Below, piece by piece: positions 11,478 to 57,664 of a DNA stretch of 64,000 nucleotides (the stretch's first letter is position 1; each line of letters opens with the position of its first letter). The translations under genes were made by a program, and so were the position numbers. Where the stretch lies: positions 1 through 64,000 of the forward strand of contig NC_007503.1 in assembly GCF_000012865.1 (NCBI RefSeq). The letters are read 5' to 3'. Source of the stretch: Carboxydothermus hydrogenoformans Z-2901 (lineage in GTDB: Bacteria > Bacillota > Z-2901 > Carboxydothermales > Carboxydothermaceae). The notes beneath the pieces were generated by a model. It was not told the DNA's origin. It did no database searches and saw only the letters and a program-made list of their open reading frames with translations.

Positions 11478-12644
11478 TTAACTTTTAAACTGCTTCTGCC
11501 AAACGGCCAGAGCTTCCTCATAAACTTCCCGAAAGGAAACTTTAAATTCTTGAGCTGCTTTTTGGCATACCTCAAATTCCGGATGAACGGAAATAACCCT
11601 GCCTTGATAGCGACCAATTTTTACCGGAATCAAACCGTAGCGGGTATTTAGCTGAATTATTTCTCGTTCGGCTTCATAGCGTTCTATCGTTTGTCTTCTT
11701 ATCCCCAGACTTCCCGTTTCGGAAAAGATAATTTCGGCAAATTTTTCTTCGTCAGCTTCCGAACAAAGTACCGAAAGGATAACCCCCGGGCGGTTTTTCT
11801 TCATTTGAATTGGAGTAATAAATACATCCAAAGCGCCTTCGCGCAAGAGCCGGTTAAAAATAAATCCTAAAGCTTCGGGGGAGAGATGGTCAATATTGGT
11901 TTCCAAAAGAACTACTGTTTTTGCTTTTACCGGACTTCCGGCGAATAAAATTCCCCGCAGTAAATTAGGATAAAGAAAATCCCTGCTTCCGGCACCATAG
12001 CCGGTTTTTAAAATACTTCCCGAAGGCGGAACCTGTTCCGTTTTTTGTACCAGGGTCCGGTAAAGGGCAGCTCCGGTAGGGGTTACCAGTTCCCCTTCTA
12101 CCGGTGCGGGAGTTACCGGAATACCGGTCAAAAGTTCCAAGGTGGCCGGAGCCGGCAGGGGGATGGGACCGTGAGCGGAGTTTACAAACCCCCGGGAAAG
12201 GGGTAACGGTGAGGCGATTACCGTATCTACCTCTAAAAGATAAACTCCAAGAATACTACCACAAATATCAACAATGGCATCGACCGCCCCTACTTCATGA
12301 AAATGAACTTTATCAATAGTGGTACCGTGAATTTTTGCTTCTGCTTCTGCTAAAAGTTTAAAAGCGTACTTGCTTTTATCCTTTACCTCAGAGGGAAGGG
12401 AACTTTTTTCGATAATTTCGTATATATCGTTTAAATGACGGTGGTGATGGGGCTTTGGATATAACACCGAAACTTTTTTTCCGGAAATGCCGTTTTTTTG
12501 AACGGTTTTAACGTCTAAAAAAAACTCCAGGGGCAATGTATTTAAAAGATTAAGAAACTTTTCCACGTTAACTCCCAGGTCCAAAAGAAGGCCCAACATC
12601 ATATCTCCGGAAATTCCCATAAAACAATCGAGATACAGCAACAT
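11478..12644 (-). CDS. larC: Nickel-pincer cofactor nickel insertase LarC
   Basis: LarC inserts nickel into pyridinium-3,5-bisthiocarboxylic acid mononucleotide, the last step in making the pincer cofactor of lactate racemase, in a CTP-dependent reaction. The 388-residue product starts LLYLDCFMGISGDMMLGLLLD, has a histidine cluster PKPHHHRHLNDI at about residues 64-75 (likely metal binding) and the conserved HFHEVGAVDAIVDI. Unlike Lactobacillus plantarum, where larC is read with a programmed frameshift, here it is one open frame. It lies 1 bp after larB in a larE-larB-larC operon. Confidence 0.92.
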   Translation of the reverse strand: MLLYLDCFMGISGDMMLGLLLDLGVNVEKFLNLLNTLPLEFFLDVKTVQKNGISGKKVSVLYPKPHHHRHLNDIYEIIEKSSLPSEVKDKSKYAFKLLAEAEAKIHGTTIDKVHFHEVGAVDAIVDICGSILGVYLLEVDTVIASPLPLSRGFVNSAHGPIPLPAPATLELLTGIPVTPAPVEGELVTPTGAALYRTLVQKTEQVPPSGSILKTGYGAGSRDFLYPNLLRGILFAGSPVKAKTVVLLETNIDHLSPEALGFIFNRLLREGALDVFITPIQMKKNRPGVILSVLCSEADEEKFAEIIFSETGSLGIRRQTIERYEAEREIIQLNTRYGLIPVKIGRYQGRVISVHPEFEVCQKAAQEFKVSFREVYEEALAVWQKQFKS

Positions 12645-12645
12645 T

Positions 12646-13392
12646 TTACTTCTCCTTTAAGCCCAAAATTGAAATTGCTAAAGCGGCTGCTCCAAAGCCG
12701 TTATCGATGTTAACTACTCCGATTCCCGGAGCACAACTGTTTAACATCGTTAAAAGAGCGGAAAGTCCCTGAAAGTTGGCACCGTAGCCAACCGAAGTAG
12801 GGACGGCAATAACCGGACAGGAGACAAGCCCGGCAACTACCGAAGGCAACGCTCCTTCCATACCTGCTACCGCTATAATAACATCGGCCTTTCGTATTAA
12901 GTCAATACTGGCAAATAAGCGGTGAATGCCAGCAACACCGGCATCAAAAAGAGTTAGCGGTTTAAATCCGGCAAACTTGAGGGTTTCCTCTGCTTCCAAA
13001 GCTACCGGAAGATCCGAAGTACCGGCGGTGATGATAAGAGGATTACCGGGCCGAGGCTTTCCCTCCTGGTAGTAGGCAGCGGTTTTAGCCCGTTCATTGT
13101 AAGTAGCCGCGGGAATAAGTTTTTTAATTGCTTCATAATGGTCTTTACTTACCCTGGTGGCTAAAAAGCGACCGTGACGCTCATAAAGTTTTTGGGCAAT
13201 GAGGGCCGTTTCCTCCGGCGTTTTATTTTGAGCAAAAATTACTTCGGCAAACTCCGTCCGCTTTTCCCGGTGAAAATCAACCCGGGCAAAACCCAGGTCT
13301 TCAAAAAACTCGTTCCGCAAAATTTCTAAAGCTTTAGCGGCAGTAATTTTTCCCGTTTCGACCTCTTTTAAAACATTATAAAGATCTTGCAT
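12646..13392 (-). CDS. larB: Nickel-pincer cofactor biosynthesis protein LarB
   Basis: LarB carboxylates nicotinic acid adenine dinucleotide at C5 and removes AMP, the first step towards the nickel-pincer cofactor. The 248-residue protein has the family's N-terminal region (FARVDFHREKRTEFAEVIFA) and a PurE-like C-terminal domain (TAGTSDLPVALEA, VIAVAGMEGALPSVVAGLV, PTSVGYGANFQGLSALLTMLNSC). It adjoins larE without a gap and precedes larC by 1 bp, so translation of the three is coupled. Confidence 0.93.
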   Translation of the reverse strand: MQDLYNVLKEVETGKITAAKALEILRNEFFEDLGFARVDFHREKRTEFAEVIFAQNKTPEETALIAQKLYERHGRFLATRVSKDHYEAIKKLIPAATYNERAKTAAYYQEGKPRPGNPLIITAGTSDLPVALEAEETLKFAGFKPLTLFDAGVAGIHRLFASIDLIRKADVIIAVAGMEGALPSVVAGLVSCPVIAVPTSVGYGANFQGLSALLTMLNSCAPGIGVVNIDNGFGAAALAISILGLKEK

Positions 13393-14196
13393 TTACCGCG
13401 CCTCCAAAACTTCATTCATACTGCCGGTACGGTATCCCTGGAGATCAAGGCAAACATATTTAAAGCCCAGCTCGTGAAAATGATTAAGAATTTCCGTACG
13501 CTTTTCGACAGCCAAAGACAGCTCTTCAGGGTCCAACTCGATTCGGGCAACGGGGTCGTGAAAGCGAACCCTGACGATATTAAAGCCCAGATCCTTTAAA
13601 TATTTTTCCCCTGAATAAATTTTTCGCAAACTTTCCTTCGTAATTTTCGTATGGTAAGGAAAACGGGAGGCAAGGCAGGCTTCTGCCGGCTTATTCCAGT
13701 TGGGAAGCCCCATTTCCCGGGCAAAACGGCGGATTTCTTCTTTGGTAAACCCGGCTTCCCGTAAAGGGGAACGGACCCCAAGTTCGGCAATTGCCCGGTG
13801 CCCGGGGCGATAGTCGTTGTTATCGTCTAAATTTGCTCCATCAACGACATAGTTAAAATTTAATTGTTCTTTTAATTCAATAAGTTTGGTAAAAAGGTTT
13901 TTCTTGCAGTAATAACACCGGTCCGGGGGATTATTGACAAAGTTGGGATCCGAAAATTCATCGGTATAAACCTTCAGTAATTTAACTTCAAGCATCTTTG
14001 CTATATTTTCTGCTTCTAAAAGTTCGTCGGGCTTATAAGTATCGGAAATGCCCACGGCGGCTACCACTTTATCTCCCAAGACATCTCTGGCAACTTTTAA
14101 AAGAAAACTGCTGTCAACTCCTCCGGAAAACGCTACCACAACCGACTCCATTTCGGTTAAAATAGAAGTAAGTTTTGTGAGCTTCTGCTGCGCCAT
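13393..14196 (-). CDS. larE: ATP-dependent sulfur transferase LarE
   Basis: LarE adenylates the carboxylates of the LarB product and adds sulfur to them. The 267-residue protein has the PP-loop SGGVDSS (24-30). C174 in EACLASRFP corresponds to the sacrificial cysteine of the Lactobacillus enzyme. C94 and C97 (RCYYC) are two further cysteines; three-cysteine LarE forms are known to hold an iron-sulfur cluster that supplies sulfur catalytically, so this may be that type (inference). It is the first gene of the minus-strand lar operon. No larA is next to it; the nearest candidate is at 56.2 kb. Confidence 0.92.
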   Translation of the reverse strand: MAQQKLTKLTSILTEMESVVVAFSGGVDSSFLLKVARDVLGDKVVAAVGISDTYKPDELLEAENIAKMLEVKLLKVYTDEFSDPNFVNNPPDRCYYCKKNLFTKLIELKEQLNFNYVVDGANLDDNNDYRPGHRAIAELGVRSPLREAGFTKEEIRRFAREMGLPNWNKPAEACLASRFPYHTKITKESLRKIYSGEKYLKDLGFNIVRVRFHDPVARIELDPEELSLAVEKRTEILNHFHELGFKYVCLDLQGYRTGSMNEVLEAR

Positions 14197-47336: not shown

Positions 47337-47816
47337 ATGGAAATTACAATTGTTGCGGTTGGCAAAATCAAAGAAAGGTATTTAAAAGAGGGGATAGCCG
47401 AGTATTTAAAACGGCTATCCCCTTATGCCCGTTTAGCGGTAATTGAGGTGGACGATGAAAACGCTCCGGAAAACCTATCGCCGGCGGAAGCCGAAAAGGT
47501 AGTAAAAAAGGAAGGGGAGCGAATTTTAGCTAAAATTACCCCTTCTTCTTTTGTTATTGCCCTTGATCTTAAAGGAAAAAATCTCTCATCTGAAGAGTTT
47601 GCCCATTTTATTTCGGAAAAGAATCTTTATGGGCAAAGTAAGCTTACTTTTATTATCGGCGGCTCTCTTGGCCTTTCCCGTGAGGTCCTGGAACGGGCGG
47701 ATTTTAAGCTTTCTTTTGGCAGGATGACCTATCCCCACCAGCTGATGCGCTTAATCCTTTTAGAGCAGATCTACCGGGCCTTTAAAATAATCCGGGGCGA
47801 GCCTTATCATAAGTGA
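47337..47816 (+). CDS. rlmH: 23S rRNA (pseudouridine1915-N3)-methyltransferase RlmH
   Basis: The 159-residue SPOUT methyltransferase modifies pseudouridine 1915 in helix 69. [78 protein letters not shown] and the C-terminal GEPYHK are all RlmH signatures. Length is exact for the family. Confidence 0.97.
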
Positions 47817-48185
47817 TAAAGACAAAAATCTAGATAAAATAAAAAATATAACAAGATTTGGGTTTCTTCCAACTCCCCATGGTTTAACAGGGATAATTTT
47901 GAAAGGGGAGTTAACCCCTCTTATCCTTCATAAGAAACCGTAACAGTTACTCGGGTTGCTGCTCGACTTTGCCCTATCATCCTGAAATGTAAAAGATTTA
48001 AAGAATTGCCATTTTATTAAGTTGAAAATCATTTACAAAAATAAAGTTTAATTCCAATTCCCCTGCCGTTTTGGCAGGGGATTTTTTATGCCTTAATCGT
48101 TAGTATGTTTTGTAGGTTGTAAAGAAGCATTTTATTTTTATTGGGAATCTACAGGCAATGCTGTTCTTCAGCCCTTAGATTTAAT
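47817..48185. other. Gene-free interval with nested inverted repeats
   Basis: No coding frame is convincing. The part 47861-47939 has an outer pair GGTTTCTT/AAGAAACC and an inner pair AACTCCCC/GGGGAGTT (47871-47878, 47905-47912). GGATAA inside the inner loop (47891-47896) can pair with TTATCC (47921-47926) outside it. GTAACAGTTAC (47940-47950) is a small palindrome. A terminator at 48060 follows. It may be a structured RNA or a decayed element. Confidence 0.5.
48060..48087 (+). terminator. Intrinsic terminator
   Basis: CCCCTGCC and GGCAGGGG form an 8-bp stem around GTTTT, followed by ATTTTTT. It lies 240 bp after rlmH with no gene between, so it may end a non-coding transcript from the structured interval. 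Confidence 0.85.
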
Positions 48186-49094
48186 TTAAGTTTCTAAATT
48201 AATGATTTCTGCAAATTCTTTTGACTTAGTGTAGTTTTGGACGAAACCAATGAAAGCTTGAGCAGCCCGTGATAGGCATCGATCTTTTTGCCAGGCTAAA
48301 CCGATAGTTATGTTCATTGGTTCTTCTAATTGGATACTGACAATTTTATCCCATTTTTTTGTTATTCCATTCATTAAAAAAGTAATTCCCAAGCCATTAC
48401 TAACCAATTCTTTTATCGTTTCAATTTGGCATGAGGAAAGGAGAATATTTGGAGAAAACCCGTAATAGTTGCAGAGGGCGATAATTTTATGACGAGTGTA
48501 GGAATCCTCTTTTAATAAGATAAATTGTTCATCTTCTAATTGGCGCAAACTTATTCTTTTTTCCTGACTAAATCTATGATTTTCAGATACACAAAGAACA
48601 ATTTGGTCTTTGGTTATGGGCAACATACAGAGATTTTCACTTTGCTCTGGAAGAATGATAAGACCCAAGTCAAGTTCTCCATTTTCAAGTAAAGATACCA
48701 TAGCCCAGGAACCTTCTTCGCGTACATGCAATTCCAAGTGGGGGTAAGCGTTTTTAAAACCTTTGAAAATTTTAGGAAAAAGGTAAGCTCCGATCATTGG
48801 GGGGATTCCAAGTTTAATAACACCTTTTTTATAATTTTTTAAATCTTCAAGCTCGGATTGGGCTTTTTTTACATCCTTTAGTATTTTTTCTACATGTTGA
48901 AGAAACAGCTTGCCCTCGTCGGTTAGAACAACTTTCCGTTTACTACGATCGAAAAGTTGGACTTTTAGTTCTTGTTCAAGATTATTTATTGCAATTGTGA
49001 TGGATGGTTGAGCAACATGAAGTTGTTCAGCAGCACGAGTAAAGCTGTTAAGTTTGCTAACAGCATAAAAATACTCTAATTGTCGGAATTCCAT
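48186..49094 (-). CDS. LysR family regulator of the dicarboxylate island
   Basis: A 302-residue LysR regulator. MEFRQLEYFYAVSKLNSFTRAAEQLHVAQPSITIAINNLEQEL is the DNA-binding domain and the effector domain begins near 90 (KLGIPPMIGAYLFPKIFKGF). It is closest in look to CynR/CitR-like regulators. ATG 49094 follows AAAGAGGTGA, so the extra N-terminal frame is rejected. It is divergent from the transporter-fumarase-fumarate reductase genes and probably controls them in response to a C4 acid. Its base and codon use is like the island, unlike the flanks. Confidence 0.87.
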   Translation of the reverse strand: MEFRQLEYFYAVSKLNSFTRAAEQLHVAQPSITIAINNLEQELKVQLFDRSKRKVVLTDEGKLFLQHVEKILKDVKKAQSELEDLKNYKKGVIKLGIPPMIGAYLFPKIFKGFKNAYPHLELHVREEGSWAMVSLLENGELDLGLIILPEQSENLCMLPITKDQIVLCVSENHRFSQEKRISLRQLEDEQFILLKEDSYTRHKIIALCNYYGFSPNILLSSCQIETIKELVSNGLGITFLMNGITKKWDKIVSIQLEEPMNITIGLAWQKDRCLSRAAQAFIGFVQNYTKSKEFAEIINLET

Positions 49095-49157
49095 TTGTTT
49101 CACCTCTTTTAAGATGCCACTAAAAAAGAATCCAGTTAATAAGTGAAAAAAATAACA

Positions 49158-49218
49158 AATTATGTTAATCAATTTCGTCATCTAATTATTTCGAATATTA
49201 GTATACCAATTATGTTAA
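49158..49218. promoter_or_regulatory. Direct repeats and dyad, probable LysR operator region
   Basis: AATTATGTTAA occurs at 49158-49168 and 49208-49218, exactly 50 bp apart (about five helical turns). Between them CTAAT and ATTAG (49182-49201) form a partial dyad. All lie 64-124 bp before the lysR start in the divergent gap. Confidence 0.5.
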
Positions 49219-49387
49219 AAAAAATCAATCAAATAAGAGCAAGAGCTGTTTATATACTCGAATCAGCAGAAATAGATAATATAAATAAAGTTATTTAAAA
49301 AAAATATTAATTACTTAGGAAAGACTAAATAATAAATAGAAAATATTAGAAATTTTCCCTTAAGAAAGGATAAAATATATAGTGAAA

Positions 49388-49403
49388 TGTGAATCATTTC
49401 ACA
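49388..49403. promoter_or_regulatory. CRP-type palindrome TGTGA-N6-TCACA
   Basis: TGTGAATCATTTCACA is a perfect match to the CRP-family consensus. It lies 61 bp before the transporter start codon. It also sits within an inverted repeat GTGAAAT/ATTTCAC (49382-49401). It suggests that a CRP/FNR-family protein controls the island. Confidence 0.65.
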
Positions 49404-49464
49404 CACCCGTTGGGCCCAATGGGAATGGAAAATTAAAAATTTTTAAAAGGAGAGAGTGAATTGT

Positions 49465-50865
49465 ATGAATAAAAAAATTCGCGCATTGCTAACCTGTGCT
49501 GTAGGTTTAGCAATTTGGTTTTCCCCAATACCGACAGGCTTAGATCCCAAAGCTTGGCACTTGTTAGCGATTTTTGTGGCGACAATTATAGGTTTTATCT
49601 TGCAGCCTCTACCAATTGGCGCAATAGCTTTTATTAGTGTCACATTATCAGCTCTTACTGGGATTTTAGATGCCAAAGCTGCATTGGCGGGGTTTGCAAA
49701 TTCCACAATTTGGCTGATTGTTTCTGCTTTTATATTTGCTATAGGTTTTGTTAAAACCGGTTTGGGATTACGAATAGCCTATTATTTAATCCGCTTATTA
49801 GGCGATAGTACTTTAAAGTTGGGGTACACATTGGTATTAAGCGATTTAATTATAAGTCCTGCCACACCTTCTAATACGGCCCGGGCGGGGGGAGTATTAT
49901 TCCCGATTGTACGGAGTCTTGCCGAGGCTTTTGGCTCTAAACCTGGGGAGTCCCCTCGCAAAGTGGGTGCATACCTTATGCAAACAGCATATCAAGGTAA
50001 TGCTATTACTTCAGCCATGTTTTTAACTTCGATGGCTGGTAACCCGCTTATTGCACTTCTTGCTTTGAAAACTCTCAAGATAGACATTACTTGGAATCTG
50101 TGGGCTAAAGCAGCAATTGTACCTGGAATAATTTCAATCTTAGTAATTCCTTACTTGCTTTATAAAATTTACCCACCAGAAATCAAGAAAACACCTGAAG
50201 CTAAAGAAATTGCGGCTAAGGAACTGGTTAAAATGGGACCTATGAAATTTGAAGAAAAAGTATTAGCTATTGTATTTATTGGGGCTCTAATCTTATGGGC
50301 TACCTCCCAATATACCAAAATTGATGCTACTATTGTAGCAATGTTAGGCGTTTCTGCCATGCTAGTAGCAAAAGTTATTGATTGGAAAGATGTTCTGGCT
50401 GAAAAAGGAGCATGGGATACCTTAGTGTGGATGGGTGTGTTAGTAGCACTAGCTGGTAATCTTTCTGAGCTAGGTTTTATTCCCTGGTTTGCGAAAAACG
50501 TAGGGAATATGATTTCTGGAATTTCATGGTTCTGGGCGTTCGTTATTCTTCTGGTAGTTTACCTTTATGCTCATTATGGATTTGCTAGCTTAACTGCTCA
50601 TATTACTGCAATGTATGCTGCTTTTGCTTCTGTTGCAGTGGCAGCCGGTGCACCACCTTATCTTGTAGCACTATCTTTAGCCTTTATGTCTAATTTGTGT
50701 ATGTCTTTGACCCATTATGCTGCAGGTCCATCCCCGATTTATTTTGGTGCAGGCTATGTTGATCAGGGAACATGGTGGAAACTTGGTTTTATTGTTTCTA
50801 TAGTAAACCTGTTTATCTGGGTTGGTATCGGAGCAGTATGGTGGAAAGCCCTTGGACTCTGGTAA
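49465..50865 (+). CDS. DASS/SLC13 family C4-dicarboxylate (or 2-oxoglutarate/malate) transporter
   Basis: A 466-residue transporter with about twelve membrane helices, of the DIT1/CitT type. Substrate and sodium-site motifs are visible in SPATPSNTARAGGVLFPI (about 132-149) and SLTHYAAGPSPIYFGAGYV near 415. It starts AWHLLAIFVATIIGFILQPLPIGA. Its neighbours (fumarase, fumarate reductase, LarA homologue) point to malate, fumarate or tartrate-like acids. ATG 49465 is preferred to GTG 49456. Confidence 0.88.
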   Translation: MNKKIRALLTCAVGLAIWFSPIPTGLDPKAWHLLAIFVATIIGFILQPLPIGAIAFISVTLSALTGILDAKAALAGFANSTIWLIVSAFIFAIGFVKTGLGLRIAYYLIRLLGDSTLKLGYTLVLSDLIISPATPSNTARAGGVLFPIVRSLAEAFGSKPGESPRKVGAYLMQTAYQGNAITSAMFLTSMAGNPLIALLALKTLKIDITWNLWAKAAIVPGIISILVIPYLLYKIYPPEIKKTPEAKEIAAKELVKMGPMKFEEKVLAIVFIGALILWATSQYTKIDATIVAMLGVSAMLVAKVIDWKDVLAEKGAWDTLVWMGVLVALAGNLSELGFIPWFAKNVGNMISGISWFWAFVILLVVYLYAHYGFASLTAHITAMYAAFASVAVAAGAPPYLVALSLAFMSNLCMSLTHYAAGPSPIYFGAGYVDQGTWWKLGFIVSIVNLFIWVGIGAVWWKALGLW

Positions 50866-50876
50866 AGTTGCTTATA

Positions 50877-50918
50877 TTACACCACTGGATCAGTTAGTTC
50901 ACTGGTCCGGTGGTGTAA
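50877..50918 (+). other. Hairpin between transporter and fumarase genes
   Basis: TTACACCACTGGA (50877-50889) pairs with TCCGGTGGTGTAA (50906-50918), 13 pairs with one T-G wobble, around a 16-base loop. No T tract follows on the plus strand, so it may stabilise or process mRNA rather than terminate. Confidence 0.6.
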
Positions 50919-50976
50919 AAATTCTCATAAATGTGTTTTTTACTTCTAAATTTGGAAAAAGGAAAGGGGTAAGAGG

Positions 50977-51822
50977 ATGCGTATCATTGAAGCAGCTCAA
51001 ATTACGGAAGCTGTTGCTCAGCTTGCAATTAAAGCTAATTATTATTTAAATCCTGACCTGTATGAAGCGCTGGTTAAAGGTCGGGAAATGGAAGAATCGC
51101 CAATAGGTAAAGAGATTTTTGAAATATTGATAAAAAATGCTGAAATTGCTAGGGAAGAGGAAATGGCAATTTGTCAAGATACTGGCATGGCAGTTGTGTT
51201 TATGGAAATTGGCCAAGATGTTCATATAGTAGGGGGAAATCTTGAGGACGCCGTTAATGCAGGTGTGGCAAAGGGGTATTTAGAAGGGTATTTACGAAAA
51301 TCTGTCGTAGAGGAGCCATTATTTAACCGAGTTAACACTAAGAATAACACTCCAGCTGTAATTCATGTGTCAATTGTTCCTGGTGACAAAGTTAAAATAG
51401 TGCTTGCTCCTAAAGGTTTTGGTAGTGAGAATATGAGCGCACTTAGAATGTTTAAACCGTCTGATGGTATTGAAGCTATTAAGAAGTTTGTTGTTGATAC
51501 TGTAGTCAATGCTGGTTCAAATCCTTGTCCACCTATAGTAATTGGAATAGGAATTGGCGGTACAATGGAAAAAGCTGCTCTTTTAGCGAAAAAAGCCTTG
51601 ATTCGTCCGCTTAATATACGGAATTCTCATCCACAGTATGCTGCTTTAGAGCAAGAATTACTTGAATTAGTGAATAACACTGGTATTGGACCTCAGGGGT
51701 TAGGTGGACGGATAACAGCATTGGCAGTAAATATTGAGTGGTTCCCAACCCACATTGCAGGTTTGCCAGTGGCAATTAATATAAATTGTCACGCCACCAG
51801 GCATGCTGAAATCGAACTTTAA
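50977..51822 (+). CDS. Class I fumarate hydratase (or related hydro-lyase), alpha subunit
   Basis: The 281-residue subunit is the N-terminal half of iron-sulfur class I fumarase (TtdA-like). Cysteines in [29 protein letters not shown] and [12 protein letters not shown] would hold the [4Fe-4S] cluster. [28 protein letters not shown] is typical. Tartrate dehydratase is the main alternative. AAAGGAAAGGGG precedes ATG 50977. The beta subunit follows after 23 bp. Confidence 0.9.
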
Positions 51823-51845
51823 AGACTCTATAAGGGGGAAAAAAG

Positions 51846-52400
51846 ATGAAAGAGCCTATCCGTATTACACTTCCTTTAACTGAAGAAAAGGTGCGTAGTC
51901 TTAAAGCAGGTGATAGTGTCTTAATTACTGGTGTAGTTTATACTGGCCGGGATGCTGCTCACAAGCGCATGGTAGAAGCGTTGGACCGTGGAGAAGAACT
52001 ACCTACTGATTTAAAGGATCAAGTGATTTATTATGTGGGACCAACTCCTGCAAAGCCAGGTAAACCTATAGGGTCAGCTGGGCCTACCACTAGTGGTCGG
52101 ATGGATGCATATACGCCTCGACTTTTAGAAAAAGGACTAAGAGGAATGATTGGTAAAGGATACCGTTCGCCTGAAGTAATTGAGGCAATTAAAAAATATG
52201 GAGCAGTATATTTTGTTGCTATTGGGGGAGCAGCTGCATTGATTGCCAAAAGTATTAAGAGTTATGAAGTAATTGCTTACGAAGATTTAGGGCCTGAAGC
52301 ACATGCCAAAATCTATGTAGAAGATTTTCCGGCGATTGTAGCTATTGATTGTGAAGGAAACAATATCTACGAAATTGGACCAAAAAAATATAAGAGGTGA
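51846..52400 (+). CDS. Class I fumarate hydratase, beta subunit
   Basis: The 184-residue subunit is the C-terminal half of class I fumarase (TtdB-like): GDSVLITGVVYTGRDAAHKRMVEALDRGEELP, YVGPTPAKPGKPIGSAGPTTSGRMDAYTPRLLEKGLRGMIGKG and a closing EDFPAIVAIDCEGNNIYE. With the alpha subunit it interconverts malate and fumarate. RBS AAGGGGG precedes the ATG; the fumarate reductase gene begins 4 bp after the stop. Confidence 0.92.
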   Translation: MKEPIRITLPLTEEKVRSLKAGDSVLITGVVYTGRDAAHKRMVEALDRGEELPTDLKDQVIYYVGPTPAKPGKPIGSAGPTTSGRMDAYTPRLLEKGLRGMIGKGYRSPEVIEAIKKYGAVYFVAIGGAAALIAKSIKSYEVIAYEDLGPEAHAKIYVEDFPAIVAIDCEGNNIYEIGPKKYKR

Positions 52401-52404
52401 TTAA

Positions 52405-54114
52405 ATGCTTAAGTACGACGTACTCGTAATAGGCAGTGGAGGAGCGGGAATGCAGGCTGCTTTAGTAGCAGCTAAGTCGGGAGAATTAAATGTTGCTCTT
52501 ATGACAAAAGTGTTTCCTACGCGTTCTGCTACTTGTTGTGCCCAAGGTGGTACTAATGCAGCTCTTCGGAATGTTGATAAGTCTGATTCAATTGAAAAAC
52601 ATGCTTTTGACACTATAAAAGGAAGTGACTTTCTTGCAGACCAGGATGCTGTAGAATTTTTTGTTAGTTTATTACCTGAAACTATTTTGGAGCTGGATTA
52701 TTTTGGAGTTCCTTTTTCCCGTCTTGAAGATGGTACAATAGCTCAGCGGCCTTTTGGGGGACAGTCTCATCCGAGAACATGCTATTCTGCAGATAAAATA
52801 GGTGCTGTAGTTTTACACACCTTATACGAACAGTGCCTAAAAAATCAGGTAAATATTCTTACTGAGTGGTTCTTATTAGATCTTGTAGTAGAAAACGAGC
52901 AAATTATTGGTGTTGTTGCTATGAATATGAAAACAGGAGATATTCATCCGATCCTGGCTAAAGCTGTTGTTTTAGCGACAGGTGGGGCTGGACGCGTTTA
53001 CTGGAACCGAACCACTAACCCGTTTGCCTCCACGGGCGACGGGATGGCTGCAGCTTTTAGAGTAGGAGTTGCTTTAAAAGATCCAGAGTTTGTACAGTTT
53101 CATCCAACCGGCTTAGCTGGAACAGGGATCCTAATGTCTGAGGCTTGCCGGGGTGAAGGAGGATATCTCCTGAATAATAAAGGTGAACGGTTTATGCAAC
53201 GTTATGCTCCAGAAAAAATGGAGCTTGCAACTCGTGACTTGGTTTCTCAAGCTATTGAAACTGAAATTAAAGAAGGTCGTGGATTTGGAGAAGGTATAAA
53301 TGCTTATGTTCTGCTTGATTTACGTCACCTTGGACGGGAAAAAATCTTAGAACGTTTACCACAAATCCGTGAGCTTGCTATCCAGTTTGAGGGTATTGAT
53401 CCTATCGAGCAGCCAATTCCTGTGCGTCCAAGTTGTCATTATAGCATGGGTGGAATAGATGTTATAGATTACAAAACTTGTGCTACGGTTGTTAAGGGAT
53501 TATATGCTGCTGGAGAATGTTCTTGTATTTCAATCCATGGTGCAAACCGTTTGGGTGGCAATTCAACTGCCGAAGCTGTTGCTTTTGGTAAAGTTGCTGG
53601 CAAAGCAGCGGCAGAATATGCTCAAAATGTAGGATTTTCTTCTGAGAAAAAAGTAAGTGAGTGTGCTAAGAAATGGGAAAATGAATACAATATTGCTGTT
53701 TCGCGGACAAATGGTCCGTCGGTTGCTTCTATTCGTAGTCGTTTAGCAGAGACAATGTGGCTTAATGTTGGGGTTTTTCGCAAGGAAAAAGAAATGTTGC
53801 AGGCAGCAAAAGATGTTGATGCATTAATTGAAGAGTATAAATACTGTGTTGTTGGTGATAAAAACAGAATTTATAATACGGCGTTTACGCAGTACATCGA
53901 ATTGGGTAATATGCTTACGGTTGCTAAGGCTATTGTTATAGGAGCGTTAAACCGCAGAGAAAGTCGTGGTTCGCATAAAAGAGAAGATTATCCGCAAAGA
54001 GATGATAAAAACTACTTAAAACATACAATTATTACCCTTGAAGGTTCGGAGTACAAGTTGTCGTATCGACCGGTTGTTATTACAAAATATCAACCGGCAG
54101 AGAGGAGGTACTAA
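52405..54114 (+). CDS. Fumarate reductase/succinate dehydrogenase flavoprotein subunit
   Basis: The 569-residue flavoprotein has the FAD fold VLVIGSGGAGMQAALVAAKSG, VQFHPTGLAGTGIL, GEGGYLLNNKGERF, RPSCHYSMGGIDV and HGANRLGGNSTAEAVAFG, so the active-site residues are present. In place of the usual R-S-H-T at the covalent FAD site it reads TRSATCCAQGG (A42), so FAD is probably bound non-covalently. No signal peptide is seen, so it should be cytoplasmic. It is directly followed by the iron-sulfur subunit gene. Confidence 0.9.
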   Translation: MLKYDVLVIGSGGAGMQAALVAAKSGELNVALMTKVFPTRSATCCAQGGTNAALRNVDKSDSIEKHAFDTIKGSDFLADQDAVEFFVSLLPETILELDYFGVPFSRLEDGTIAQRPFGGQSHPRTCYSADKIGAVVLHTLYEQCLKNQVNILTEWFLLDLVVENEQIIGVVAMNMKTGDIHPILAKAVVLATGGAGRVYWNRTTNPFASTGDGMAAAFRVGVALKDPEFVQFHPTGLAGTGILMSEACRGEGGYLLNNKGERFMQRYAPEKMELATRDLVSQAIETEIKEGRGFGEGINAYVLLDLRHLGREKILERLPQIRELAIQFEGIDPIEQPIPVRPSCHYSMGGIDVIDYKTCATVVKGLYAAGECSCISIHGANRLGGNSTAEAVAFGKVAGKAAAEYAQNVGFSSEKKVSECAKKWENEYNIAVSRTNGPSVASIRSRLAETMWLNVGVFRKEKEMLQAAKDVDALIEEYKYCVVGDKNRIYNTAFTQYIELGNMLTVAKAIVIGALNRRESRGSHKREDYPQRDDKNYLKHTIITLEGSEYKLSYRPVVITKYQPAERRY

Positions 54115-55068
54115 ATGCAAAAAGTTACTTTTAAAATAAGACGATTTGATGGGGAAAAATCATGGGTTCAGGAGTATCAATTTCCTTATCAGCCTGGGAA
54201 AACGATTCTTTGGGCATTATCTTATATAAAAGAGTCTATTGACCCAACGTTAACCTTTACCGCATCCTGCCGCCATGCTGTTTGTGGTGCGTGTGCAGTG
54301 CGGGTTAATGGGCAGGCGGTGTTGGCCTGCGAAACTTTGTTGGATAAGATGTTAGACCGTTGGGAAACTGATACTTTGCTAATTGAGCCTCTGCAGAATT
54401 TTAAAGTAATTCGCGACTTAGTGGTAGATTGGGAAACAAAAGTGGAACGACTAGCAAGGGTAAAACCATGGTTGATACCTCGCGACGAATTTAGCAAAGA
54501 AACAGGCTGTCGGCAAACGCCTGAGGAATTCAAAAAAATTAATAAAAATTCCGACTGTATTTTATGTGGTTGCTGTGCATCGGAGTGTAATAAACTTAGC
54601 AATAACGACAGTGATTTTCTTGAACCTTTTATCTTCTCTAAAGCCCAAAAATTTATCGCTGATTCTCGCGATAAAGACCCGCTTTCGCGTATAAGTACTG
54701 CCATTAATAATGGAGCCTGGAAATGCATGCATTGTCAGGAATGTGTCACCAAGTGTCCGAAAGGCTTATCTCCGGCTGATGATATTTCTTTCATTCGTCA
54801 GTTTGCAATAGCTAATGGGATTAGAAATAATCCTGGTACCCGTCATGCTAAATCATTTTTGGACGATATTCAAAAAACCGGCCGGTTAAATGAGGCGTTG
54901 ATGTTTATTAAAACTGAAGGATTGTTAGGATCATTAGGTAGCATCCCAGTGGCTTTGCGCTTGGTAAGAAAGGGGAAACTACGCTTGAAGCATGTGTTGG
55001 CCAAACCTATAAAAGAAATCGAACAGGTCCGCACAATAATTAAGGTTATTACGAAAGATAAAAAATAG
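54115..55068 (+). CDS. Fumarate reductase/succinate dehydrogenase iron-sulfur subunit
   Basis: A 317-residue subunit. C52, C57, C60 and C72 hold a [2Fe-2S]; C148, C151, C154, C158 and C204, C210, C214 hold the other two clusters. C207 is an extra cysteine in KCMHCQECVTKCP, which in archaeal-type (SdhE-containing) enzymes goes with a second [4Fe-4S] in place of [3Fe-4S]. It is longer than FrdB of E. coli and has the C-terminal part found before an HdrB-like partner. It lies 0 bp after the flavoprotein gene. Confidence 0.9.
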   Translation: MQKVTFKIRRFDGEKSWVQEYQFPYQPGKTILWALSYIKESIDPTLTFTASCRHAVCGACAVRVNGQAVLACETLLDKMLDRWETDTLLIEPLQNFKVIRDLVVDWETKVERLARVKPWLIPRDEFSKETGCRQTPEEFKKINKNSDCILCGCCASECNKLSNNDSDFLEPFIFSKAQKFIADSRDKDPLSRISTAINNGAWKCMHCQECVTKCPKGLSPADDISFIRQFAIANGIRNNPGTRHAKSFLDDIQKTGRLNEALMFIKTEGLLGSLGSIPVALRLVRKGKLRLKHVLAKPIKEIEQVRTIIKVITKDKK

Positions 55069-55160
55069 TTAGGAAAAATTGAATGAAAATGTCCAAAGCA
55101 GATGTTTGCAAAATCAATTAAAGAGATATAAGCAGGCTTGTAAAATATTAAAATAACAAC
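55069..55160 (+). pseudogene. Diverged duplicate of the iron-sulfur gene end
   Basis: A frame here reads LGKIE*KCPKQMFAKSIKEI*, which resembles the true C-terminus RKGKLRLKHVLAKPIKEIEQ just upstream, with in-frame stops. It looks like a decayed tandem duplication of the gene's last 60-90 bases, or a remnant of recombination at this joint. Confidence 0.45.
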
Positions 55161-55193
55161 GAGAAAACCTAAAAAAGGGGAGTAAGTACAATT

Positions 55194-56057
55194 ATGAAAT
55201 ATGCATTTTTTCCTGGATGCGTTTTGCAAGGGGCAAGTGAAGAAGCGTATATAGCAACGATAAAAGTCGCAAATGCCTTAGGAATAGAATTAGTGGAAAT
55301 TCCGGGGTGGACTTGTTGCGGAGGTTCCCACCTTCAGGATTACGATGGAACGGTTGCTTTAGCAGTTAATGCGAGAAATATTGCTTTGGCAGAGAAGATG
55401 AACCTGCCGATTCTTACTGTATGTAGCACTTGCACGTTAATGTTGAGGGAGGCTAAGCATAAGCTGGATAATGGTAAAACGGAGTCTATAAACCAAGCTT
55501 TGCAACAAGTTGGATTAGTTTATAAGGGGACTAGCCAAGTTACCCATTTTTTATGGGTGCTGATTAATGATTATGGGTTAGAAAGGTTAAAGAAAAAAGT
55601 TAAAAAACCGCTTAAAGGATTGAAAGTTGCGGGATATTACGGGTGTCATATTTTACGTCCTCCTCACATTATGAATTTTGAAGATTATGCAAATCCTCAT
55701 TCCCTTGAAGATTTGATCAGAACCTTGGGAGCTGAACCCGTTGATTTTGATGCTCGTTTGAAATGTTGCGGTTTTCATGCGCTTTTAACTAGTAATGCTG
55801 ATGCAATTAAAGCTACAGGGAAAATCAATCTTAGTGCGATTAATGCTGGTGCAGACTGCACTGTTACTCCGTGTCCTCTCTGTCAGATGCAGCTTGATAT
55901 GTATCAACCAGAAGGGAAACGAGCAGTTGGTGCTAAAAAAGAGATTCCATCTTTGCATTTTACTCAACTAATAGGATTAGCCCTTGGCTTTAATGCAGAG
56001 GAGCTTGGGCTAAATCGACATATTGTAAATACTTCAGTTGTATATGCTGCTCGCTGA
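55194..56057 (+). CDS. CCG-domain subunit of fumarate reductase (SdhE/HdrB-like)
   Basis: A 287-residue protein with two CCG modules: C9, C41-C42-G and C77/C80 (STC) in the first, and YYGCHIL, RLKCCGFHALL and TPCPLCQMQ in the second. Such domains bind a non-cubane iron-sulfur cluster in HdrB and in SdhE/TfrB/MfrE proteins. It replaces a membrane anchor, so the reductase may take electrons from thiols, a quinol or a soluble carrier; the donor is unknown. A terminator follows. Confidence 0.88.
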   Translation: MKYAFFPGCVLQGASEEAYIATIKVANALGIELVEIPGWTCCGGSHLQDYDGTVALAVNARNIALAEKMNLPILTVCSTCTLMLREAKHKLDNGKTESINQALQQVGLVYKGTSQVTHFLWVLINDYGLERLKKKVKKPLKGLKVAGYYGCHILRPPHIMNFEDYANPHSLEDLIRTLGAEPVDFDARLKCCGFHALLTSNADAIKATGKINLSAINAGADCTVTPCPLCQMQLDMYQPEGKRAVGAKKEIPSLHFTQLIGLALGFNAEELGLNRHIVNTSVVYAAR

Positions 56058-56083
56058 AACTAATATAGACGCTTATTGACACA

Positions 56084-56120
56084 TTAAACCGCAGAATTTA
56101 AATACGTTCTGCGGTTTTTA
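56084..56120 (+). terminator. Terminator after the CCG-domain gene
   Basis: AAACCGCAGAA and TTCTGCGGTTT form an 11-bp stem around TTTAAATACG, followed by TTAT. It partly separates the LarA homologue from the genes before it. Confidence 0.87.
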
Positions 56121-56175
56121 TCCAATTAGCTCATGATTGAAATCTTGGTGAAAAAGAGAAAGGGGCAATAATAAA

Positions 56176-57432
56176 ATGATAATTGAATTAGGATTTGGTA
56201 AAGAAAAAAAACAGCTTTCAGTTAAGTCGGAAAATTTGTTAGGGGTTTTGGTACCCAATCAGGTTGAAGTTGAGCTAACCGGGAAAGAGGAAGTAATCAG
56301 AGCATTAAACAACCCTATTGATTCTCCAAAATTAAGAGAAATTGCCAAACCGGGAGAAAAAATTGCTATAATAACCAGTGATATTACCAGGCCTGTACCC
56401 AATAAAATTTTGTTGCCTCTGGTGCTTGAGGAATTATGGCAAGCGGGAGTAAAAGATGAAGATATTACAATAGTATTTGCCCTTGGGAGTCACCGTTTTC
56501 ATACCGAAGAGGAAAAGATAAGTTTGGTTGGCGAAGAAATATACCATAGGATTAAGTGTATAGATAGCGATCAAAGAGATTGTGTGCGTTTAGGCTATAC
56601 AAAGTTCGGAACTCCTGTAGATGTCTTTCGACCGGTTGCAGAAGCCGATCGACGGATATGCCTGGGAAATATAGAATATCATTATTTTGCCGGTTATAGT
56701 GGTGGAGCTAAGGCAATCATGCCCGGTGTCTCAAGTCGGGAAGCGATCCAGGCTAATCACAGCCGTATGGTGGAAGTAGAAGCTCATGCAGGCAATATTG
56801 CCACCAACCCAGTGCGCCAGGATATTGACGAAGTAGCTAAGTTTGTTTCCTGTGACTTTATTCTCAATGTAATCCTTAACGAACAAAAACAAATTATTAA
56901 AGCGGTAGCTGGCCATTATCTTTCTGCCCACCGAAAAGGATGTGAATTTTTAGATCAATTATATAAAGTAAAAATCAAGGAAAAAGCAGATATCGTTATT
57001 GTTTCTGCCGGAGGCTTTCCTAAAGATATCAATTTATACCAAGCGCAAAAGGCTCTGGATAATGCCAAGCATGCTGTTAAAAAAGGTGGAATAATAATAT
57101 TGGTAGCAGCCTGTTCCGAGGGATTTGGTGAAAAGGTTTTTGAAGATTGGATGTTATCGGTATCTAGGCCGGAAGATTTAATTAACCGTATCAAGGAAAG
57201 ATTTCAGTTAGGGGGTCATAAAGCTGCTGCAATTGCTATGGTATTACGGGAGGCTGAGATCTTTCTAGTATCGGAATTAAATCCTGATATTGTTCGCCAA
57301 ATTTTTCTTACCCCTTTTACCAGTTTGGAGCAAGCCTTAGCCAGAGCATTTGAGAAAAAAGGGCCTTCAGCTAAAGTGTATGTAATTCCCTATGGGGGAG
57401 CGACTTTGCCCTATTTTGATGCAGAATGTTGA
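56176..57432 (+). CDS. LarA family nickel-dependent hydroxyacid racemase
   Basis: The 418-residue protein is a lactate racemase homologue. R72 (SDITRPVPN), H106 (GSHRFH), H169 (EYHYFAGYSGG), K179 (GGAK) and H195 (QANHSR) match R75, H108, H174, K184 and H200 of Lactobacillus LarA with the same spacing (10 and 16 between the last three), so it should bind the nickel-pincer nucleotide. Its neighbours are malate/fumarate genes, so malate racemase is my inference; lactate or another 2-hydroxyacid remains possible. It needs LarE, LarB and LarC, which are at 11.5-14.2 kb. RBS AAAGGGG. Confidence 0.88.
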   Translation: MIIELGFGKEKKQLSVKSENLLGVLVPNQVEVELTGKEEVIRALNNPIDSPKLREIAKPGEKIAIITSDITRPVPNKILLPLVLEELWQAGVKDEDITIVFALGSHRFHTEEEKISLVGEEIYHRIKCIDSDQRDCVRLGYTKFGTPVDVFRPVAEADRRICLGNIEYHYFAGYSGGAKAIMPGVSSREAIQANHSRMVEVEAHAGNIATNPVRQDIDEVAKFVSCDFILNVILNEQKQIIKAVAGHYLSAHRKGCEFLDQLYKVKIKEKADIVIVSAGGFPKDINLYQAQKALDNAKHAVKKGGIIILVAACSEGFGEKVFEDWMLSVSRPEDLINRIKERFQLGGHKAAAIAMVLREAEIFLVSELNPDIVRQIFLTPFTSLEQALARAFEKKGPSAKVYVIPYGGATLPYFDAEC

Positions 57433-57664
57433 TTAGGTGGTATAAAACGTATATACTTATGTTGCGTAGCCAACGTTCCTGTTTTTTCACTTTTTGAGAA
57501 GCGAAGAGGAACTCTTGTTATATCTTCGGTTTTTTGTAGATACGCCATTTAATACCATTTCCATTAATGCCAGTAAAAGCGTCTGTTTGTATCAGGTTTA
57601 AATAATGTAATTCAAACAGCAAAAAGGAAAGCTCGGACTATAACTTAACTTTTGAGGTGAAAGA

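Follow-up and report, generated by a model that had tools for sequence, protein, structure and literature searches.

The malate racemases are reported to outnumber every other group of the LarA superfamily (PMC11770544), and two of them, Mar2 of Thermoanaerobacterium thermosaccharolyticum (LarAH6; PDB 6D6Z and 7S91) and Mar1 of Desulfitobacterium hafniense (LarAH5), have been studied as proteins (PMC7583248). No paper was found that gives a malate racemase a demonstrated cellular role. Fumarate reductases made of FrdA, FrdB and a third subunit with Cys-Cys-Gly (CCG) domains are likewise known, namely the 8-methylmenaquinol:fumarate reductase (MfrABE) and the thiol:fumarate reductase (Tfr) of methanogens, and a cluster of symporter, fumarase and Sdh genes has been reported from Carboxydothermus pertinax (PMC6557876). 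Here we compare these systems with a locus at positions 48186–57432 of the first 64,000 nucleotides of the Carboxydothermus hydrogenoformans Z-2901 genome (contig NC_007503.1; this whole stretch is called the window), in which a LarA homologue follows genes for a dicarboxylate transporter, a fumarase and a fumarate reductase. C. hydrogenoformans is a heat-loving bacterium that lives on carbon monoxide (CO). We read the locus, with a probability of about 0.6, as a C4-dicarboxylate reduction operon under LysR control with a malate racemase at its 3′ side. The component parts are already known; the pairing of a malate racemase with a fumarate-reduction operon was not found in the literature searched and, judged from the gene arrangement, appears to be new.

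The genome (G000) is a single contig of 2,401,520 bases and was compared with two congeners (G001 and G002). The eight open reading frames (ORFs) previously proposed from the sequence alone are all intact, and their families were confirmed over curated cutoffs. They lie in the order LysR (divergent), DASS, fumarase alpha, fumarase beta, FrdA, FrdB, FrdE and LarA, as follows (model scores are given against the respective cutoff).

48186–49094, minus strand: LysR-type regulator, divergent from the operon; ORF as first listed extends to 49181; 93% identical ortholog in G002
49095–49464, no strand: divergent LysR/DASS promoter region, conserved with G002 (mean column identity of the alignment 84%)
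49465–50865, plus strand: DASS-family dicarboxylate transporter (TIGR00785, 462 vs 198.6), substrate predicted only
50977–51822, plus strand: class I fumarase alpha subunit (NF004885, 424 vs 276)
51846–52400, plus strand: class I fumarase beta subunit (NF005310, 329 vs 238)
52405–54114, plus strand: FrdA/SdhA flavoprotein (TIGR01812, 801 vs 567), no Tat-type leader seen
54115–55068, plus strand: FrdB/SdhB iron-sulfur subunit (TIGR00384, 213 vs 88), 14 cysteines
55194–56057, plus strand: FrdE/SdhE, HdrB-like third subunit, with PF02754 (CCG) twice
56086–56119, plus strand: intrinsic terminator after frdE (12-bp stem, −16.6 kcal/mol, z −6.3), conserved in G002
56176–57432, plus strand: LarA homologue, predicted LarAH6 nickel-pincer malate racemase (NF052593, 615.6 bits vs 500)

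The helix-turn-helix of LysR begins at residue 32, so that Met30 (about 49094) is probably its true start; the DASS protein probably starts at the ATG at 49465.

The proposal that the LarA homologue is a malate racemase was strongly supported by the LarAH6 equivalog cutoff, by its signature residues and by genes for biosynthesis of the nickel-pincer (NPN) cofactor; on this evidence the protein is very probably a malate racemase. The cutoff places it in the same family as Mar2, which is also its best match in PDB (417 bits, against about 244 for lactate racemases). In the alignment, Mar2 residues R74, Y172, K181, H197, Q293 and K351 correspond to R72, Y170, K179, H195, Q291 and K349 of the window protein. 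Mar2's catalytic and NPN-binding residues are shared, the catalytic histidines being H106 and H169 and the NPN-binding Arg, Lys and His residues R72, K179, H195 and K292 (residue roles from PMC7583248 and PMC11770544). H348–K349 forms the malate signature, which is His or Gln followed by Lys at the positions of LarA W358–T359 (PMC11770544). The sole difference from Mar2 among named substrate residues is loop residue K173, which is F171 here; a further difference is the genomic context, a fumarate-reduction operon in the window. Assignment to the lactate racemases (LarA group 1) was rejected, with NF033504 scoring 385 against a cutoff of 460 and Y170–F171–H348 standing in place of the F-F-W signature; the LarAH5 (432 vs 462) and LarAH10 models were also below cutoff.

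For the cofactor, two complete larBCE sets are encoded in the genome, one at 1141297–1144020 and one in the window at 11478–14196:

11478–12644, minus strand: larC, NPN cofactor biosynthesis (nickel insertion)
12646–13392, minus strand: larB, NPN cofactor biosynthesis
13393–14196, minus strand: larE, NPN cofactor biosynthesis (sulfur transfer)

At least two enzymes probably depend on this cofactor, because the genome also encodes, at 1171247–1172605 (L055:8248–9606), another LarA homologue, which belongs to group 22 (526.8 vs 400); by eye, it lies 3′ of genes resembling 2-oxoacid:ferredoxin oxidoreductase. Among the congeners, larB is present twice in G002 and once in G001, although neither has a malate racemase.

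The link between larA and the C4 genes was examined by searching other genomes for the gene set side by side. A survey that started from LarA loci was at first read as refuting the link, but it had left out genome G040, where the LarA score is slightly below the LarAH6 cutoff. A search in the other direction, from FrdE, identified FrdE at 47% identity or more in 12 genomes of other genera, and one of these, G040, has the set. There, on contig C5 (L255), LysR, DASS, FumA, FumB, FrdA, FrdB, FrdE and LarA are arranged as in the window, in order as well as in orientation. The gaps are 98, 22, 32, 2, 2 and 26 nt, the last of these between frdE and larA, and larE, larB and larC adjoin the LysR gene. 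Protein identity to the window is 53–69% for the operon and 43% for LarA. The G040 LarA passes the LarAH5 cutoff (565 vs 462), which is the family of Mar1 and carries the same predicted activity, and narrowly misses that of LarAH6 (492.7 vs 500); in a tree of 89 homologues it falls in another clade than the window LarA (support 100/100). The position after frdE was thus filled twice, and two recruitments to one operon position argue for function. The tree does not allow descent of both from one ancestral LarA, unless one of the copies has since given way to another racemase, and such a replacement would point to function just as much. Among the FrdABE loci examined, the full DASS–Fum–FrdABE set occurs only in the window, G002 and G040, with LarA after frdE in two of the three, and none of the other loci has a LarA directly adjoining. 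By a rough estimate, which assumes no more than about 4 LarA homologues among some 2,500 genes, the chance of a LarA lying directly after a given frdE is near 0.002. FrdE-like matches near some other LarAs were CCG proteins of other complexes (22–45%) and were not counted. From these comparisons, and mainly from G040, larA probably takes part in malate or fumarate reduction.

Several observations weigh against that conclusion. None of 151 LarA loci from Bacillota genomes carries a Fum/Frd set, and no other locus above the LarAH6 cutoff lies beside Fum/Frd genes in a 399-genome sample of the phylum. No LarA was found in G002, the congener that has the operon. Between frdE and larA stands the terminator, which was first spotted by eye, was absent from the terminator-scan listing and was then confirmed by folding (hairpin and T-run, 0 of 200 shuffles as good); the same hairpin lies 3′ of frdE in G002, a genome lacking larA. 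With a terminator of this strength at that point, the eight genes cannot simply be taken as one operon, and larA may fall outside the transcription unit of the others. No convincing promoter was seen by eye in the 56 bases from the terminator to the larA start; a TTGACA motif, followed by only a weak −10, coincides in part with the terminator (by eye), and a promoter scan gave 27 matches against 34 in shuffles, i.e. no excess over shuffled sequence. The window LarA is nested among homologues from inositol and malic-enzyme clusters (100/99 with L062). Finally, a second C4 locus at 1222112–1233432 (L060) encodes FumAB, SdhA, two small membrane proteins in the positions of SdhC/D, SdhB, malic enzyme, a TRAP transporter and a probable two-component system; the L-malate produced by LarA could equally be used by this locus.

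The terminator, the congener's operon without larA, the ancestry of the protein and the malic enzyme encoded in the genome would together favor a bystander, whereby larA arrived with the insertion as a stand-alone D-malate salvage gene with its own or read-through transcription, and its L-malate feeds the malic enzyme (1.227 Mb) or the second fumarase rather than this operon specifically. The presence in G040 of another malate-racemase family at the same operon position, 26 nt after frdE, speaks against this, and we regard a bystander as rather unlikely. The sequence-only reading, in which both malate enantiomers are taken up, dehydrated and reduced to succinate, therefore stands in part: the malate racemase is upheld by sequence, and evidence on its functional link to C4 genes is split between the exact set in distant G040 and its absence from the 151 loci and from the congener's operon.

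If the racemase does serve the operon, malate would be imported by the DASS carrier, probably with succinate leaving in return, although the substrate range of the carrier is itself predicted. An exchange mechanism is suggested because its closest solved relatives are the chloroplast transporters DiT1 (477 bits) and DiT2.1 (422 bits), VcINDY scoring only 51 bits. LarA, with the nickel-pincer cofactor from LarB/C/E, would convert D-malate to L-malate, the iron-sulfur fumarase would convert L-malate to fumarate, and FrdABE, as a cytosolic reductase, would reduce fumarate to succinate with electrons from CO or H2 during growth on CO, the flux direction being presumed. Co-expression of larA with the operon in C. 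hydrogenoformans would also be expected.

Both subunits of the two-part fumarase scored above the class I fumarase cutoffs, and those of L(+)-tartrate dehydratase TtdAB were missed (NF006084, 180 vs 365 for alpha; NF006082, 103 vs 264 for beta). These scores bear on a further possibility, that LarA epimerizes tartrate at C2 and that the class I hydratase dehydrates tartrate. Known malate racemases show promiscuous tartrate epimerase activity (PMC11770544), and three clostridial loci carry a LarA about 61% identical near L-tartrate dehydratase subunits; however, the hydratases of both the window and G040 pass the fumarase cutoff and fail that of tartrate dehydratase, and the neighboring fumarate reductase requires fumarate, which makes tartrate a highly improbable substrate of the operon.

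The claim of a three-part fumarate reductase also held, with FrdA and FrdB above their cutoffs and two CCG domains in the third subunit, which has 11 cysteines with two Cys-Cys-Gly motifs among them. A cytochrome b anchor as third subunit was ruled out; the subunit is a CCG/HdrB-like SdhE, and the combination of SdhA, SdhB and two-CCG SdhE with no cytochrome b genes in the operon is that of the SdhABE-type succinate dehydrogenases/fumarate reductases. The complex resembles Mfr and Tfr in composition but misses every equivalog cutoff tried (NF042952, 362 vs 600; NF042965, 341 vs 500; NF042982, 743 vs 1100; and NF004898), so that identification as MfrABE was rejected. Tfr fuses FrdB and the CCG part, whereas they are separate subunits here, and the lack of a Tat-type leader on FrdA is a further difference. 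Reduction of malate to succinate, the presumed direction, would fit a reductase of this type. The operon might alternatively be oxidative or biosynthetic, running from succinate to malate, or from malate to succinate as a reductive tricarboxylic acid (TCA) branch, with LarA making D-malate as a product or buffer. Fumarase and racemase are both reversible, and the study of the C. pertinax cluster reads it as part of the reductive TCA branch (PMC6557876), but the first gene of the operon encodes a transporter and the genome has another Sdh/Fum locus, which includes malic enzyme, and we consider such a role improbable.

That C. pertinax cluster (cpu_07800–07850 and cpu_15750–15760) appears to be the same operon. 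G002 is taken to be C. pertinax because its operon breaks at a contig end inside frdB and resumes on another contig, as cpu_07810–07850 and cpu_15750–15760 are listed apart; protein identity to the window is 89–96% in G002, and the promoter region and terminator are shared. Unlike the window, G002 has no larA, carries the operon at another chromosomal site and has frdB with an insertion element at the contig break. On 100% CO relative to N2, the symporter–fumarase–Sdh genes of C. pertinax were 460–960-fold up, the separated FrdB/FrdE part 420–640-fold and the LysR gene 220-fold, both media containing pyruvate and thiosulfate (PMC6557876). The authors of that study took the last subunit for a cytochrome b and the two parts for separate clusters (PMC6557876); our comparison suggests one operon with a CCG subunit, split by an insertion element. 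With LysR (93%) and the promoter region conserved, induction by CO would be expected in C. hydrogenoformans as well.

The block that holds the locus represents a true insertion difference from G001. In G001, dsdA follows rlmH after 104 bp; in G002 these two genes are separated by other genes that span about 5 kb, and LysR–DASS–FumAB–FrdABE is found elsewhere in the genome with about 90% DNA identity to the window. The block and the operon have thus moved within the genus. The corresponding features of the window are:

47815–57646, no strand: block absent at the rlmH–dsdA site of G001
47969–48041, no strand: insertion-element remnant at the left block border, 81% similar to the end of the element interrupting G002 frdB

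The D-serine dehydratase gene (dsdA) and an SNF transporter gene downstream were considered and rejected as block members, being flanking genes conserved in both congeners. Read against G002, the frdE terminator marks a rearrangement breakpoint. The element in G002 frdB (L057:11432–11529, L056:1–98) has inverted ends of about 28 bp and an 8-bp repeat, TTTTCTTG, at both junctions. Genes 3′ of frdE in G002 (L056:2054–8013) encode a BenE-like carrier, an M24 peptidase, IclR and a ferredoxin, and their counterparts in the window genome lie at 1.1307–1.1367 Mb, with the second larEBC set following a few genes later.

In the tree of homologues, the LarA of G052 (78% identical) is the sister of the window protein (100/99), and 11 of the 14 members of their clade (99/92) are encoded in clusters that also contain GAPDH, PGK, transketolase halves or inositol genes. 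Across the fetched stretches of the 151 LarA loci, malic enzyme was found at 40, GAPDH with PGK at 38, and IolD with transketolase, GAPDH and PGK at 17. Tree position and cluster context together indicate that the window LarA was very likely acquired from the lineage of inositol/malic-enzyme clusters; no IolD was found in the window genome (best matches 29–30%). The cluster of Caloramator quimbayensis (L103:1–11227) reads GAPDH (type II)–PGK–TktN–TktC–IolB–IolD–IolE–IolG–LarA, with malic enzyme, and similar LarAH6 clusters, often with malic enzyme, occur at L062, L063, L104–L106, L110 and L112. The IolB of C. quimbayensis is below its family cutoff (103 vs 205), and neither iolC nor iolJ is among the ORFs listed at L103 and its relatives. 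In such clusters, a two-subunit transketolase might split 2-deoxy-5-keto-D-gluconate to give malic semialdehyde (HOOC-CH2-CHOH-CHO); as the carboxylate analogue of glyceraldehyde-3-phosphate, this could be converted by GAPDH- and PGK-like enzymes to D-malate and ATP, and D-malate could then pass via LarA and malic enzyme to pyruvate. Such a source of D-malate would explain a malate racemase placed before an L-malate-specific malic enzyme. The step from malic semialdehyde to D-malate is already known from carnitine breakdown (PMC11353897); the inositol-to-D-malate route was not found in the literature searched, and a survey of inositol genes makes no mention of transketolase or malate (PMC9430895).

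We tentatively suggest that malate racemases are a recurrent add-on of fumarate-reduction operons, with D-malate as a respiratory substrate and at least two recruitments from different LarA families, and that the LarAH6 lineage stems from this undescribed inositol–D-malate route. The operon pairing, filled by two racemase families in distant genomes, gives a malate racemase a testable role, the supply of D-malate for fumarate reduction, and the inositol route, if true, would be a natural internal source of D-malate. At the three clostridial loci with tartrate dehydratase-type subunits, all from metagenome-assembled genomes (L148:1242–2764, L155 and L181:5328–6934), these subunits lie about 4 kb from a LarAH6-type racemase; both subunits were scanned in L148 and L181, and from this proximity it is possible that the LarAH6-type family serves tartrate use in clostridial loci.

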